Notes under the pieces: model-generated
Told to the model about the DNA's origin: nothing
The model's input: the letters and a program-made list of their open reading frames with translations, nothing else
Databases searched by the model: none
Made by a program: the position numbers and the translations under genes
Assembly: GCF_009930795.1 (NCBI RefSeq)
Contig: NZ_CP017146.1
Location: forward strand, 2,728,001-2,792,000
From: Marisediminicola antarctica
Lineage (GTDB): Bacteria; Actinomycetota; Actinomycetes; Actinomycetales; Microbacteriaceae
DNA: 64,000 nucleotides
Direction of reading: 5' to 3'
Shown: piece by piece, positions 32,616 through 37,920 of the stretch
Numbering within the stretch: the stretch's first letter is position 1
Layout of the letters: each line of letters opens with the position of its first letter

Positions 32616-34199
32616 CTACTGCTCGAGCGCGTCGAGGATTGCACCGACCTCGGACTCGGCGAGCGGCGCCCACGGCGCGCCGTCGGGATTCGATGAGGCA
32701 GCCTCGGGGCTCTCCCCCTCGTTCCACCACTTGGACTCGAACGGCACTCCGTCGAAGAGCACCCGGTCACCCTTTTCATAGATGGTCGGGCCCTCCCACT
32801 CGGGATAAGTACCCTTCGGCAGGGTCGGCATCTCGAAAGGGGTCTCCCCCGGCAACACCGGGCCAATGAGGGTCCACGGTGTTTCCCACTCGTTGAGCAC
32901 CGGGTTGTCGGGCAGCTCGCCCCGGGTCCACCATTTGGCCTGGTACACGGAGCGGTGCCAGACAATTTTGGTGCCCTCAAGGTATGAGGCCTCGGGAGCC
33001 CAGATGGCATACGGGCTCGTGGCGGGGTCGTCGACAATCTCCTCGAGCGTGTCCGCGGTGGTCACGGCGCCAGCCGAGCCGTCCGGCCGCCCGTCAAAGC
33101 CCTCCCCAAGCAGGTCGACGAATCGCACGTCGCCCTGATCGATGCCGCTGCACGAGTCGGACACGCGCTTCAGATCGACGTAGTTCGACCCGCAGCTCTG
33201 GTCGCGGTTGAGCGACCAGAGCGACATGCGTCCGATTCGCTGTTCGAGCGCGAAGGCGTTGAACTCCTCCGCATCCGCTAGCCCGAACACCTCGCCGGGT
33301 ACGTCGTTCTGGCCGATCATCGGGGTGGCGCCGATCTTGGTCCAGAGGGATGCCGGCGACAGCTCGATCCCGGCGCGCGAGTAGAGCGCGCCGAGCTGGC
33401 GGTGGGTCGACTGGAGCGCCTGGATGGATGCCATCGCCATGCTGTCTCCGTCGGTGCGGCTGGAGCCGTAGTCCATCGTCATGACGTTGACCCCGGCGAG
33501 GTCCACGCCCGCGTCGAGCATCTGGCTGACGGCAGTCGTGCCGTACTCGGTGAGCCCGGACGGCGCGACCGGCAGGGTGAGCCAGACGGCGAGGTCGTCG
33601 CCCGCGCTGCGCCTCTCGACCTGGAGGGTGTGGATCGCCTCGGCGCGCCGCTCCCCCGCCGACGTGTTCGTGAGGTTGCCCGCTTCGATGTCGAGGTCGA
33701 TCGTCGTGATCTCGTAACGGTCGACCACCGAGGCGTAGGCGTCGACGAGGTCGTTCACATTGGTGCATCCGGTCGCGAGTTCGTCGTTCAGGAGCCCACC
33801 GAACGACACGGTGATCTGCCCGCCGAGCTGATCGAGTCGCGCAAGCCGACGGTCGAGATCGAGCGCGTGCGACGCCTCCTCGAGCGTGTACCCGGTACCC
33901 CAGGTGGGCTCGCACGCGTCGTCTTTCGCGGCGACGATGAACGACAGGACAACGTCCCGGCCCGCGTCGGATGCGGGTGCCTCGAACGCGAACGTCGGGG
34001 TGGCGGTCACGTCGACGTAGCCGGCGAACCAGGGCTCGTGATCCTCGACGGCCTGCGCGGCGCTCCACCACTGCCAGCCGACGAATCCGCCTGAGGCGAG
34101 GAGGCCGACGAGCGCGACCGAGAGGACTACTCGCAGCGCGGAGAGGCGACGGCGCGGCGCCACCGGCTGCGTCGATGCGGCGCTCGTGGCGGCGCTCAC
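32616..34199 (-). CDS. Membrane-anchored GH18 (chitinase-like) protein
   Basis: A 527-aa protein. There is one N-terminal membrane anchor (about residues 22-42), then a GH18-like barrel with the strand-4 catalytic motif at 167-172 (IDLDIE, glutamate 172 as acid/base) preceded by VSFGGL. Near the C-terminus are two chitin-binding type-3-like modules (YQAKWWTRGELPDN and FESKWWNEGESPE), each with paired tryptophans. It would act outside the membrane on beta-1,4-N-acetylglucosamine-type glycans. Its start overlaps the glycosyltransferase stop (ATGA), so synthesis and trimming of one surface glycan are likely coupled. The polymer is unknown. Confidence 0.87.
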   Translation of the reverse strand: MSAATSAASTQPVAPRRRLSALRVVLSVALVGLLASGGFVGWQWWSAAQAVEDHEPWFAGYVDVTATPTFAFEAPASDAGRDVVLSFIVAAKDDACEPTWGTGYTLEEASHALDLDRRLARLDQLGGQITVSFGGLLNDELATGCTNVNDLVDAYASVVDRYEITTIDLDIEAGNLTNTSAGERRAEAIHTLQVERRSAGDDLAVWLTLPVAPSGLTEYGTTAVSQMLDAGVDLAGVNVMTMDYGSSRTDGDSMAMASIQALQSTHRQLGALYSRAGIELSPASLWTKIGATPMIGQNDVPGEVFGLADAEEFNAFALEQRIGRMSLWSLNRDQSCGSNYVDLKRVSDSCSGIDQGDVRFVDLLGEGFDGRPDGSAGAVTTADTLEEIVDDPATSPYAIWAPEASYLEGTKIVWHRSVYQAKWWTRGELPDNPVLNEWETPWTLIGPVLPGETPFEMPTLPKGTYPEWEGPTIYEKGDRVLFDGVPFESKWWNEGESPEAASSNPDGAPWAPLAESEVGAILDALEQ

Positions 34200-36502
34200 G
34201 CGTTGCTCGTCACTTGACGCGACGCAGTCTCGCGCGACGGAATGGTGTGAGTGGGCTGCGGCACCGTGGCGCCGTCGTGCCCGTGGTAGATGACGGCCCG
34301 CCAGTCCATCGCGGGCAGCGCCTCAGCGACCGGACGGACCGACTTCGCCCGCGGCTTCTTCTCCACCCAAAGCCAACTGGTCATGCCGAGCCAGATGTCG
34401 ACGAGCGAGTTCCAGACGCCGATTGTGGCGAGGATCGCGGCCGTCGCGAGCACTGCGTTGAACCCAGCGAACGCGGCATTGCCCCAGTTCTGCGCGAGCA
34501 CGTCGCGCCACAGGGTGAGCGCGGAGAACGCCACAATGAGGTACGGCGCGACCACGTAGAGCACGGGCGCCGCGGTGCGGTTCTTCACCTTAGGGGTGCG
34601 GACGAAGGGGATCTTCTTGCTTGTCAGTGCCTGCTCGAGCGACTTCAGCACACCCGCCAGGTTGACCGGCAGCAGCACGAGGTTGAAGCCGTAGATGCGG
34701 AAGATGTCGCTGAACCGGTAGCCGCAGTAGCGCAGGTCGCTGCCCATCGCGAGAAAGTACGGCAGCGCGGCCAGCACGACGACGGGGCTGAGCAGCCGGC
34801 TGTCGTAGGGGTAGACGAGCAGGAAGACCAGGCCGAAGCTCGCCCAGCTGATTGATGTCATGTAGTTGACGCGCAGGAGCATCTCGATGAGGCTCACCGA
34901 CTCGCCGGCACGCTTGCGGGCGCGAACCTGGCGCCACAGCTTGGGCAGGATGAGGAGGCCTCCGTTGGCCCAGCGGCGACGCTGCACAACGAGGGATCCG
35001 AAGTCCGGCGGCGTCGCGCTGTAGCTGAGCCGCTCGGGGTAGTTGACGAGGGTCCAGCCATGCGCGCCGAGGTCGATGCTCGACTCCGTGTCTTCGATGA
35101 CCGTGCGGTCCTGCACATAGCGGCGCACCTCGAATCCGCCGACGGTCTCGACCTCGACGATGTCCTCGAGGGCTCGTTTGCGGATGACTGCGTTGGCGCC
35201 GACCCAGAAGGTCGCGCCGTAGTGCGACATGCCCTGGTGCAGGATGTGCTGGATGTCGGTAGTCGCCCCGGCGAGACGCTCGATGCGGGTGGGCGCACCT
35301 CGGAACGAGGAGTACGGCGTCTGAGTGACGGCGACGCGGGCGTTGTCGGGCTGCTCGAGGAAGTAGACCAGGCGCAGGCAGTAGTCGCGCAGCAGCAGCG
35401 AGTCGGCGTCGAGGGTCAGCAGGTACTCCGAGTCCGGCACGACGAAGTCGGCATTCGCGGATGCGGGGACGGGGCGCAGAATGGTGCCATCCGGTCCCTC
35501 CTCGCGCTGGAAGCGTCCACCCATCAGTCCGATGTAAGCGTTGAGGTTCATTGCCTTGTTGGTCTCGTGCGAGAGCGACGCGAAACGCTTGCGCTCGAAG
35601 GTCTCCATCTCGGCGGTGAACGTCCAGGCGAGGCGGCGGTGGAGCTCGAGCATCCGGTCCGGGGTGGGGGTGGCTCCCTCGTCGGCGGCGGCGTCGAGGG
35701 CCGTGGCCATGAGCGTCAGCTCGCTTGCCAGCTCGCCCAGAACCTGCTCGACAAAGAAGGTGTCGACGTGGTCGGTGACGTCTTCGGCTTCGGCCATTCC
35801 GGTGAGCCAGGCGGTCGCCCAGCGGTAGCTCTCGGCAAGCTCGCGCACCGCGCCGATCCCGATGGTGTCGCTCTCGGCGACAGCGATCTCGCAAATCAGC
35901 AGCTCGTCCGTGAACCGCTCTCGCGGCTCGGCGAGAGCGTGCGCGATGGTGTTCGCGATGGCCCGGGACTCGGTCAGACGTGCGGCGACGGCGGCATCGC
36001 TCGGATAGGGCGGGTCGTCGAGCAGCAGTACGACGCGCAGGGACGGGTACTCCTGCAGTGCCGCCGACCAGAGGGTCGCGCGCACGACGGCGGGCTCCTC
36101 CGCATATGAGGGCACGAGCACCGTCATCGAGCCGTGGGTGGTCGCGAAGTGGGCGTCGAGCTCCGCTCGGGGCACCCGAACATGGTCGCGGAATCGCTGC
36201 AGAGCGCCCTGGCGGGCCACGAGGTACATCAGCGCGGAGAAGGTGAGGAAGGTCACCACCACGAGGTAGGAGATCGCCTCGGTGGTGAAGCGGAAGCTTT
36301 CGGTCCCGTTATTGAGGAATTGGCGCACCACGGTGTAGATCAGGTACGCGAACCACGCCAGCACCGTCGCGACGATGGCGAGGCGGCCCCAGGTGATCTT
36401 GGCATCACTGGGCCTGTCGTGCACGGATGGGAGCGGCTGGGTGGTGCGTTCCGCCCCCCACTGGCGTTTGCGGGCGCGCGAAGGCAGGGTCGTCGAAGGC
36501 AT
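34196..36502 (-). CDS. Membrane GT2 glycosyltransferase (cellulose/chitin synthase-like)
   Basis: A 768-aa processive-type family-2 glycosyltransferase. Two N-terminal spans (about 41-62 and 77-97) precede a GT2 domain with acidic residues at DDPP (162-165) and DAD (365-367), the catalytic base region EDTES (470-474) and the processivity motif QRRRW (507-511). Four or more membrane spans follow. An insertion of about 110 residues, mostly helical, separates the first and second acidic motifs and is unusual. The start at 36502 has GAGGA in a leader shared with the half-gene upstream. It is coupled to a GH18 protein, pointing to an exported polysaccharide made from activated sugar on the inner face. 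Confidence 0.88.
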   Translation of the reverse strand: MPSTTLPSRARKRQWGAERTTQPLPSVHDRPSDAKITWGRLAIVATVLAWFAYLIYTVVRQFLNNGTESFRFTTEAISYLVVVTFLTFSALMYLVARQGALQRFRDHVRVPRAELDAHFATTHGSMTVLVPSYAEEPAVVRATLWSAALQEYPSLRVVLLLDDPPYPSDAAVAARLTESRAIANTIAHALAEPRERFTDELLICEIAVAESDTIGIGAVRELAESYRWATAWLTGMAEAEDVTDHVDTFFVEQVLGELASELTLMATALDAAADEGATPTPDRMLELHRRLAWTFTAEMETFERKRFASLSHETNKAMNLNAYIGLMGGRFQREEGPDGTILRPVPASANADFVVPDSEYLLTLDADSLLLRDYCLRLVYFLEQPDNARVAVTQTPYSSFRGAPTRIERLAGATTDIQHILHQGMSHYGATFWVGANAVIRKRALEDIVEVETVGGFEVRRYVQDRTVIEDTESSIDLGAHGWTLVNYPERLSYSATPPDFGSLVVQRRRWANGGLLILPKLWRQVRARKRAGESVSLIEMLLRVNYMTSISWASFGLVFLLVYPYDSRLLSPVVVLAALPYFLAMGSDLRYCGYRFSDIFRIYGFNLVLLPVNLAGVLKSLEQALTSKKIPFVRTPKVKNRTAAPVLYVVAPYLIVAFSALTLWRDVLAQNWGNAAFAGFNAVLATAAILATIGVWNSLVDIWLGMTSWLWVEKKPRAKSVRPVAEALPAMDWRAVIYHGHDGATVPQPTHTIPSRETASRQVTSNA

Positions 36503-36504
36503 AG

Positions 36505-36600
36505 GGGCTGGTCCTCGGGTAAGGCCGGCGGCTCAGGATCTCGGGGGCGCCGGGGATTTCGGGTCATCCACGCCGCAACGGAGTTTCGGGTTCCAGGGAG
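36505..36600 (-). promoter_or_regulatory. Leader of the glycosyltransferase gene with ACCCGAA repeats
   Basis: On the minus strand the leader contains ACCCGAA twice (complement at 36585-36591 and 36558-36564) and ends with CCGGCCTTACCCGAGGAC (36530-36513), a string also present before the half-gene at 37565. The last part includes the ribosome-binding site. The role is unknown; it could be a protein-binding or structured RNA leader. Confidence 0.5.
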
Positions 36601-36677
36601 GGCGTCATCGAGATTTCCTTAGAATATCGACTCTTCAACACTATCGACGAGCGAGCGCGAAAGGGGGGTTAGTGAAA

Positions 36678-36713
36678 AATCCCCGTGTCCCCAAATAGGG
36701 GGACACGGGGATT
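36678..36713 (-). terminator. Rho-independent terminator of the half-glycosyltransferase gene
   Basis: A perfect 15-bp stem, AATCCCCGTGTCCCC (36678-36692) with GGGGACACGGGGATT (36699-36713), around a 6-nt loop. On the minus strand it is followed by TTTTTC and lies 12 bp after the stop of the gene at 36726. Confidence 0.85.
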
Positions 36714-36725
36714 CGAGAAATCGAC

Positions 36726-37565
36726 TCAGGCCTGCGGCTGCCGCGACTTCGTTCGACGAAAGTCGAGCTCGAAGGTGTCGAGGTCGGCGGAGAAGGTCCA
36801 GGCCAGTCGCTGGTGCAGCTCCAGCATCCGTTCGGCGGGCGGCACACGACGCTCGTCAGCGATCGCGACGTGAAGCGAACGGGTCAGCCGGGAGAGCTCG
36901 TGGGCGGTGTCGTCGAGCACCTTCGCTGCGGCGTCGCCGCCGGCGGCCCGCTCCTCGGCTGCCTCCGCTGCCAGGCGCTTGATGGCGAAGCGGTAGCTCT
37001 CGGCGAGCTCGCGCACAGCCTCGGGGGCGATGACGCTCGACTCGGCGAGACGGATCTCGCACGCGAGGAGTTCGTCGCGAAATCGCCTGCTGGGTTCGGC
37101 GAGCACGAGCGCCACACGGTCGGTGATGGTGCGCGACTCGCCCAGCCGCGCCGCGATGTGGGCCTCGAGCGGACGGGGCGGGTCATCGAGCAGGAGCACG
37201 ACCCGCAGCTTGGGGTACTCCTGCAGCGCTGCGGCCCACACGGTCGCCCGCACGTCGGGCACCTCCTCGGTGTAGGGCGGCACGAGCACCGTCATCGACC
37301 CCTCCCTGGTGGCGAAGTGGCTCTCGAGCCGGGCCGGGGCGCGCCGACGGCCGTGCTGGCGGACCGCCGATTGCCGCGCGAGCAGGTACATGACCAGGGC
37401 GAAGGCGAAGAACGTCATCACGATGAGATAGGAGATCGAATCGGATGTCGCCGCGCCGGTCGCCACCAGCGGAACGACGAAGGAGGGGATCAGGTAGGCG
37501 AGCCAGGCGAGAACGGTCACGGCGATCGCAACACGGATCCAGAGAGTGGATGACGTGGAAGTCAT
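36726..37565 (-). CDS. Stand-alone N-terminal half of a GT2 glycosyltransferase paralogue
   Basis: A 279-aa protein similar along its whole length to residues about 30-305 of the adjacent GT2 enzyme: two membrane spans, SMTVLVPPYTEEVPDVRATVW, LRVVLLLDDPP and RMLELHQRLAWTFSADLDTFE. It then stops with DFRRTKSRQPQA. The DAD, EDTES and QRRRW motifs and all C-terminal spans are missing, so it cannot transfer sugar itself. It has its own conserved leader and a strong terminator, which suggests an expressed gene rather than debris. A regulatory or assembly partner of the full enzyme is possible. Start ATG 37565 follows GAGGA. Confidence 0.75.
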   Translation of the reverse strand: MTSTSSTLWIRVAIAVTVLAWLAYLIPSFVVPLVATGAATSDSISYLIVMTFFAFALVMYLLARQSAVRQHGRRRAPARLESHFATREGSMTVLVPPYTEEVPDVRATVWAAALQEYPKLRVVLLLDDPPRPLEAHIAARLGESRTITDRVALVLAEPSRRFRDELLACEIRLAESSVIAPEAVRELAESYRFAIKRLAAEAAEERAAGGDAAAKVLDDTAHELSRLTRSLHVAIADERRVPPAERMLELHQRLAWTFSADLDTFELDFRRTKSRQPQA

Positions 37566-37834
37566 GGGGGCGTCCTCGGGTAAGGCCGGACGATGCGAGC
37601 GGGTGGATTCGCATCGGTAGTTCGGGTCGGTCAGGACGCGCGCGACGATCCGAATTGTCGCGCAGCATCCCGAACGCATGACGTCCGTATTCGGGTAGGA
37701 CACGGTCGTCGATGCGTGTGCCGACACGCTCTCAGGGTCTGGTGGGAGTGCGCGGGCGTTCGATCTGATGGTAATGCACAGCACGGGTACTTCGGGTGCC
37801 CGGCGGTGGCGGGCCGAAAATTCGGGTTTCGGCC
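37566..37834 (-). promoter_or_regulatory. Leader of the half-gene: repeats and hairpins, no gene
   Basis: This gap holds four ACCCGAA heptamers on the transcribed strand (complements at 37621, 37690, 37791 and 37821), plus ACCCGAG next to the start. Two stem-loops are visible: CGATGCGA (37591-37598) with TCGCATCG (37609-37616), and GGCCGAAA (37812-37819) with TTTCGGCC (37827-37834). The six bases containing the ribosome-binding site (AGGACG on the transcript) can pair with CGTCCT further upstream, enclosing the first hairpin. I see no coding sequence from 37566 to 37920. Confidence 0.5.
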
Positions 37835-37871
37835 TTGTCTAACGGTAGGTCACGGAGGGTTTCTGGAAACT

Positions 37872-37885
37872 CCCCCAAGCGGGGG
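37872..37885 (-). terminator. Short hairpin after der
   Basis: CCCCC (37872-37876) and GGGGG (37881-37885) form a stem with a 4-nt loop 36 bp after the der stop, followed on the minus strand by AGTTT. It is a weak terminator candidate for the der operon. Confidence 0.4.
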
Positions 37886-37920
37886 CCACACGCCCGGCGT
37901 ACGCCGACCCGCGAGGTGCG

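Follow-up and report, generated by a model that had tools for sequence, protein, structure and literature searches.

The window analysed here is a stretch of 64,000 nucleotides (C1:2728001-2792000) of the single-contig Marisediminicola antarctica genome. Its minus strand carries, in order, a gene that we take from its sequence to be der, a half gene, the full-length gene of a GT2 membrane glycosyltransferase (GT) and a gene with a GH18-like stretch (Table 1). The last of these overlaps the GT stop codon, and the two genes probably form an operon. The GT protein matched the cellulose-synthase and PgaC models far under their cut-offs, and its nearest named relatives (among the best 80 of 168) are those of Glaciibacter superstes (83%) and Planctomonas (81%). 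A second GT copy was found in the flanks of none of 109 other orthologue loci. A 15-bp hairpin between the half and the full gene was read by eye as a possible terminator; the terminator scan listed nothing at this place.

A preliminary description of this DNA had drawn attention to six same-strand copies of ACCCGAA in the leaders of the half gene and the full gene, with ACCCGAG beside both start codons. All of these are present, together with one CCCCGAG, and the opposite strand of the half-gene leader carries one CCCGA. Both leaders end, as had been described, in the same string, the 18-mer CCGGCCTTACCCGAGGAC. Its exact matches in the 3.35-Mb genome are two, both at these leaders, and one additional site appears at two mismatches; a reversed control pattern gave one match. 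The proteins behind the leaders have indeed diverged, the half protein sharing 52% identity with the N-terminal portion of its full-length counterpart. Over both strands of the window ACCCGAA occurs 16 times, versus a mean of 7.96 (sd 2.99) over 100 dinucleotide shuffles, none of which reached 16, and the heptamer thus stands above background within the window. A single-strand cluster of six copies falls within 578 nt, where the density in the remainder of the window predicts about 0.05, an expectation that is arithmetic from the window counts for a region picked post hoc.

Table 1. Positions of the features discussed, in window coordinates except for the pilB-type hairpin
Feature	Position	Strand	Remarks
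GT2 membrane glycosyltransferase, 768 aa, Glyco_trans_2_3	34196-36502	minus	gene behind leader
Half gene, 279 aa	36726-37565	minus	N-terminal part of GT protein only
Gene with CBM5/12 and GH18-like stretch	32616-34199	minus	GH18 below cut-off
Leader of full-length GT2 gene	36503-36725	minus	four CCCGA copies
ACCCGAA copies, full-length GT leader	36558-36564, 36585-36591	minus	
ACCCGAG, full-length GT leader	36514-36520	minus	
Extra copy CCCCGAG, full-length GT leader	36540-36546	minus	
Leader region of half gene	37566-37920	minus	five copies
ACCCGAA copies, half-gene leader	37621-37627, 37690-37696, 37791-37797, 37821-37827	minus	
ACCCGAG, half-gene leader	37575-37581	minus	
Shared 18-mer, first copy	36511-36528	minus	start-proximal ACCCGAG overlaps ribosome-binding site GAGGAC
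Shared 18-mer, second copy	37572-37589	minus	overlaps half gene's ribosome-binding site
Small hairpin GGAT-GACCCGAA-ATCC, ACCCGAA in loop	36554-36569	minus	CCCGA unpaired probability 0.98
Hairpin GGCCGAAA-CCCGAAT-TTTCGGCC, motif in loop	37812-37834	minus	unpaired probability 0.97
15-bp hairpin AATCCCCGTGTCCCC..GGGGACACGGGGATT	36678-36713	minus	between half and full genes; possible terminator
pilB-type motif hairpin	G000:C1:959189-959209	plus	locus L128, leader of pilB/GspE-type ATPase

Conservation of the motif in glycosyltransferase leaders

The best 80 of the 168 GT relatives were compared and grouped by record title into 23 Arthrobacter-type loci, 10 with labels of metagenome-assembled genomes (MAGs) of other phyla, and 47 others, mostly Microbacteriaceae. 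The Arthrobacter-type group takes in a record (L067) that bears the title Vibrio cholerae strain 35D and was placed there by its company; its GT locus lies among Arthrobacter relatives and the title probably reflects contamination or mislabelling. In the 7.3 kb before the start codons of the 47 leaders ACCCGA was counted 74 times in sense and twice in antisense orientation; the 96 kb of gene body at the same loci held 24 sense and 17 antisense copies. At least two ACCCGA copies were present in 22 of these 47 leaders and in 0 of the 23 Arthrobacter-type loci, whose leaders held one sense and three antisense copies altogether. The 10 leaders with other-phylum labels had one sense and no antisense copy, and none had two. 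A GT gene was detected at E<=1e-100 in 46 of the 199 family genomes sampled, and 24 of these 46 carried at least two CCCGA between -120 and +12, the copy number varying from 2 to 7. No CCCGA was found in this interval in a group including G063, G064, G077, G129, G140, G182 and G192. The motif, in a single prevailing orientation, and the leader itself are kept in related species.

Some neighbouring observations belong here. In a Glaciihabitans MAG (L040 3884-4001, the same as L160/L170) the motif hairpin together with the start-site copy is duplicated in tandem, which gives seven CCCGA. A palindrome resembling CCCC-N-GGGGA lies about 100-230 nt before the GT start in 7 of 46 leaders (L288, L289, L293, L295, L303, L311 and L313), and with this count it was dropped as a general GT upstream element; similar strings are also found ahead of pilB and of the second sRNA type described below, and they are perhaps a shared operator. 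A three-copy ACCCGA pattern was likewise abandoned as a regulon search: it matched 113 of the 199 family genomes, and the recognised matches among those listed were mostly coding-looking repeats (DPTDPT), with few leaders.

Predicted fold of the leader

Placed side by side, the leaders point to a common fold, in which an outer helix of about 6 bp is followed by ACCCGA in a 5' bulge and by an inner helix of 6-10 bp closed by an ACCCGAA loop. After the return strands and a short spacer, many leaders have an ACCCGA that touches the Shine-Dalgarno sequence or the start codon. G145 (CAAGAT ACCCGA CGGCGTCT ACCCGAA AGATGCCG ATCTTG) and G197 (CAAGAT ACCCGA CGGCGATT ACCCGAA AATCGCCG ATCTTG) illustrate the arrangement, as do G028 (GAGGGC TCCCGA CCGCACA GACCCGAAA TGTGCGG GCCCTC) and G125 (GGGAGC TACCCGA CCGTGTC TGCCCGAG GGCACGG GCTCCC), with other helix letters. 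MAFFT misplaced the helices, and the decomposition into 24 rows (23 GT and one pilB) was made by hand. In these rows, chosen for showing the fold, 95.5% of the inner-helix cells were paired (22 distinct of 24 rows) versus 51.9% and at most 61.4% in shuffles, and 89.3% of the outer-helix cells (15 distinct of 23 rows) versus 63.0% and at most 73.3%. Nine ungapped rows gave 90.7% paired versus 56.4% in shuffles, with six of six pairs changed on both sides. Among homologous leaders the helix letters change in pairs and the loop stays; in the loop CCCGA is preceded by A in all but one of the 24 rows, the exception having GCCCGA.

Two comparisons with less selection bias address the loop position of the motif. 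CCCGA was situated in a hairpin loop scoring at least 16 in 17.6% of 193 copies from 82 leader stretches versus 2.8% of 1585 copies from other parts of the loci. Against shuffles of the flanks that kept the motif, the motif-loop hairpin reached p<0.05 in 14 of 33 leaders (1.7 expected) and p<0.01 in 6 of 33 (0.3 expected), with close relatives among the leaders counted. This second test drew on 33 of the 47 non-Arthrobacter loci and the two window leaders; the 14 loci omitted were close relatives from Curtobacterium and Cryobacterium, or had been noted before as lacking the motif. It ran on 33 of the resulting 35, two having no CCCGA in the stretch, in L018 owing to an incorrect choice of start codon.

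According to the folding models, both window leaders are looser versions of the fold of their relatives, and the full-gene leader departs from the consensus. Its small 4-bp hairpin gave p 0.24 in the motif-keeping shuffles and is non-significant taken alone. The 8-bp loop hairpin of the half-gene leader gave p 0.008; it is also one training row of the hairpin model R1. By eye, the 18-mer common to both leaders resembles what is found in G168, where the outer helix ends and the start-site copy follows. The preliminary description had further suggested that CGTCCT pairs with the ribosome-binding site of the half gene and encloses the 8-bp hairpin. The enclosed hairpin is supported by folding, but the CGTCCT/AGGACG helix around it was rejected, with -41.3 kcal/mol when forced versus -46.7 kcal/mol for the free minimum and a pair probability of 0.0.

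The comparisons argue well for a structured leader, and very probably the two genes have a real regulatory leader element in common. No Rfam 15 covariance model reached its gathering score between positions 36000 and 38500; the best, CcsR1, scored 17 bits on the other strand, with 65.3 needed. The earlier proposal of an undescribed regulatory element thus holds for the shared, conserved leader, for which Rfam offers no match, and not for the operator array or the CGTCCT switch that it had offered as its form. A DNA operator array for a transcription factor would account for iterated, clustered copies upstream of two related genes, and the separate palindrome lies further upstream in seven leaders, but the 74-to-2 orientation, the position of the copies in loops with covarying stems and their running into the start codon and over the ribosome-binding site led us to rule this reading out as very improbable. 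A self-contained cis element, whose fold would sense temperature, a metabolite or ribosome occupancy with no partner in trans, would suit a conserved fold that ends at the ribosome site. Several GT relatives also bear titles of cold-adapted genera such as Cryobacterium and Glaciibacter. However, only the short motif is conserved by eye, with no pocket-like core, the copy number varies over the range given above and Rfam gives no match; a purely cis-acting leader is in our judgement rather improbable.

Hairpins with UUCGGGU loops beside mazG and elsewhere

A genome search for paired ACCCGAA copies, and in this way for the complement of the motif, led to a candidate sRNA in M. antarctica itself (genome G000, contig C1, minus strand, from about 1344594, with a predicted extent of about 140 nt over 1344450-1344594). 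The hairpin AAAGGCA-UUCGGGU-UGCCUUU is followed there by a second one, GGUCGGC..GCCGACC with UUUCGGGUAA in the loop, and by a 12-bp GC-rich hairpin; the UUCGGGU loops are the exact complement of ACCCGAA. The candidate lies past the 3' end of mazG on the opposite strand. In a genome of the same genus, G198, the three hairpins recur in the same order between hisS and mazG (assigned by Pfam tRNA-synt_His and MazG), with identical loops and a different second stem.

The neighbourhood of mazG was then found to be shared. A hairpin with a TCGGGT loop is located on the opposite strand in 6 of 50 mazG 3' regions (G000, G021, G023, G031, G034 and G044), versus an average of 0.34 regions for 59 other permutations of the hexamer; the overlapping TTCGGG also gave six. 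The hairpin model R2, built from seven training rows with no mazG information, placed 9 of its 30 best family loci beside mazG and 0 of 28 class-wide loci, the nine being five of the seven training loci (G000, G021, G023, G044 and G198) and four of the 23 others (G035, G064, G139 and G190). UUCGGGU hairpins conserved opposite mazG occur in eleven genomes from ten genera in all, and six of these (G000, G198, G021, G044, G139 and G035) have at least two hairpins with UCGGGU loops, the rest one.

An sRNA locus beside mazG is fairly supported by these sequence comparisons, and we infer that the UUCGGGU hairpins are transcribed as an sRNA. The sigma-70 promoter scan of the M. antarctica locus found none, and the terminator scan listed a sole site, at the first hairpin, the 12-bp end hairpin having no listed T tract. 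Rfam gave no match at this locus, and over 10 sRNA or pilB loci it returned a single miRNA-family match, under its gathering score. A DNA search with the candidate matched 135 of 199 genomes at E<=1, nearly all with short matches of chance quality; of five such loci inspected only G198 held a convincing homologue, and two others had the first hairpin alone in common.

Further hairpins of this kind are spread over the family. At E<=0.05, R2 matched 81 of the 199 family genomes, and in the class 62 of 197 genomes (5 in the family and 57 outside); because class-wide genomes match too, single loose matches mean little. Stricter scores and tandem arrangement set the family apart more clearly. At E<=1e-4 R2 matched 18 of 199 family genomes, of which seven are training genomes and at least one match is coding-looking, versus two outside the family. 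Two motif hairpins within 200 nt occurred at 12 of 70 loci taken from the listed family matches, with one place counted twice and two being training rows, versus 3 of 45 loci from outside the family, these by eye being coding repeats. With permuted hexamers this tandem test yielded 0 or 1, and with the reverse complement counts close to those of the motif, as anticipated (11 and 2); the count missed some places with imperfect hairpins, for example in G179 and G057. In 18 non-training hairpins 96.0% of cells were paired versus 57.6% in shuffles, and 10 of 11 pairs had changed on both sides, in a set that leans towards structure since a structure model found it.

A second, longer sRNA type was recognised in G084, G147, G021, G071, G110, G167 and G171. 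It has a promoter-like start, TCC.C..AA.TG.CGACT .. TAGGTG, and a GACTAGGGTAAGC-like stretch no more than 100 nt away from the hairpin, the latter exemplified by CAGGGCGACA-UUCGGGU-UGUCGCCCUG; at L278 of G084 the hairpin is present without the GACTAGGGTAAGC-like stretch. This type lies near the centre of L272, L273, L281, L286, L366, L372 and L397, is conserved and is a probable sRNA; Rfam had no match for it at L272 and L281. At L273 it adjoins a membrane-protein-like gene without a Pfam match. The richest place seen was L362 (G137:C1:706600-707400), with several UUCGGGU-loop hairpins within about 320 nt that look intergenic.

Predicted pairing between the candidate sRNA and the leaders

The duplex of the heptamers ACCCGAA and UUCGGGU has a calculated energy of -9.5 kcal/mol. 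None of 300 dinucleotide shuffles equalled the accessibility-weighted complementarity of the candidate M. antarctica sRNA to either window leader; for the pilB leader one of 300 did. Among 84 upstream regions in the window (of ORFs of at least 200 aa) the last 140 nt of the full GT leader ranked first in complementarity and the region before a GTG at 37784, inside the half-gene leader, second; as the number of motif copies produces this ranking, it adds no independent evidence for binding. The A before CCCGA in 23 of the 24 decomposed rows matches the U of the sRNA loop. The same letter bears on a tRNA-Pro(CGG) sensor, for which CCCGAA would complement six letters of the anticodon loop UUCGGGA. 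Six of the seven letters match in this case, and at L020 a tRNA-Pro(cgg) lies about 200 nt before the GT, but the loop A would pair with the sRNA loop, which has U there, and not with the tRNA loop, which has A, and Rfam gave no T-box match; on these two points we rejected the tRNA reading as extremely improbable.

In the mechanism that we propose, the leader RNA serves to display a short C-rich motif. In a typical leader one ACCCGA would be offered in the bulge of the outer helix, a second in the apical loop and a third over the Shine-Dalgarno sequence or start codon. sRNAs with UUCGGGU loops would dock by loop-loop (kissing) pairing at the loop or the bulge, and a second sRNA loop would pair with the start-site copy and keep ribosomes off the GT mRNA. 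We infer that the sRNA pairs with the leader in the cell, with repression as the effect. Kissing at the loop and bulge, with covering of the ribosome site, is on balance the reading that we favour. The half-gene leader with its five copies may also soak up sRNA, the full gene having the looser four-copy version, and the half gene is possibly a decoy, or its leader a sponge.

Genomes with the leader and genomes with the sRNA overlap weakly. An sRNA-like UUCGGGU place was found in 6 of 24 leader-bearing genomes (G000, G021, G031, G040, G071 and G137), or in seven if the lone hairpin of G082 is counted, and in 14 genomes in which this GT was not found (G023, G034, G035, G044, G074, G084, G110, G139, G147, G167, G171, G179, G189 and G198). 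In eight further GT genomes (G025, G037, G055, G091, G102, G114, G150 and G178) the R2 matches were un-sRNA-like by eye. Poor detection, other targets or a wrong link would each produce this pattern. Leader-bearing genomes without a detected sRNA would suit a Csr-like protein that reads ACCCGA in the loop, the bulge and the ribosome site, the UUCGGGU hairpins being unrelated terminators or acting solely by sequestering the motif. CsrA targets carry a short motif twice, once in an apical loop and once over the Shine-Dalgarno sequence, and the layout here, as in CsrA/RsmE-controlled leaders, likewise repeats a short motif at both places. The CsrA motif is, however, ANGGA, and the apical loops here hold ACCCGA; we know of no CsrA involvement in these leaders and of no candidate protein for recognition of ACCCGA. 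On this reading the two loops of one conserved place, exact 7-nt complements in the same genome, need a separate reason, and we regard a Csr-like protein as unlikely.

sRNA-leader pairing of the kind that we favour has parallels. RNAIII of Staphylococcus aureus is a 514-nt dual-function RNA. In one account, several of its hairpins with similar loops contact the leader loop and ribosome site of the rot and coa mRNAs, rot being engaged by two loop-loop contacts that involve its ribosome site and 5' UTR (PMC2837412). The likeness is that at least two loops of the candidate sRNA are complementary to the leader loop and ribosome site, by complementarity and predicted accessibility only. RNAIII has C-rich loops, unlike the UUCGGGU loop of the candidate sRNA with its ACCCGAA target, and we claim no kinship. 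The mycobacterial sRNA B11/6C is described as using a terminator-hairpin loop as seed near the ribosome sites of lipooligosaccharide (cell-surface glycolipid) genes (PMC12395582). In G021, G044, G023 and G035 a UUCGGGU loop also sits on the last, terminator-like hairpin, judged from hairpin strength and position only; in M. antarctica the terminator-like hairpin is the third one, which the terminator scan left unlisted. B11/6C directs cytosine loops at guanine tracts, whereas the candidate sRNA does the reverse, at other loci and with structured multi-site targets; its loops are UUCGGGU rather than seeds of six or more C, and Rfam gave no 6C match. By analogy, we propose a pairing mechanism of the RNAIII-on-rot and B11 type, with a different sequence, locus and target architecture.

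A gene for a pilB-type ATPase, in which T2SSE and MshEN domains were recognised, has a leader that is a possible second target. The best untrained R1 match in the M. antarctica genome, CGCCAG-ACCCGAATC-CTGGCG (E 0.003), has its loop about 43 nt before the GTG of this gene, and a further CCCGA lies 13 nt upstream of the one in the loop. Over 199 genomes R1 matched 26 at E<=0.02, the non-GT places being mostly coding or terminator-like by eye, and five other genomes had a match at least as good as the pilB hairpin, again mostly coding or terminator-like. As single-hairpin R1 matches are near background, the pilB hairpin is only suggestive. Among the pilB leaders of 27 genomes CCCGA loops occurred in six and TCGGG loops in five, with no family-wide excess.

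Literature searches, mainly outside subscription journals, turned up no sRNA or structured mRNA leader for Microbacteriaceae, and a search on the motif sequence brought up nothing among the matches listed. More broadly, and as a tentative idea that we hold with considerable doubt, UUCGGGU/ACCCGAA may be a family-wide loop code of the Microbacteriaceae. Several unrelated sRNAs (mazG-adjacent, promoter-driven type 2, and further ones in which the hairpin is repeated up to three or four times) would then control structured leaders of genes for surface polysaccharides and perhaps for type IV pili, with orphan leaders acting as sponges. If the pairing holds, it would provide the Microbacteriaceae with an sRNA-target pair governing a cellulose-synthase-like enzyme through an unusually clear loop code.
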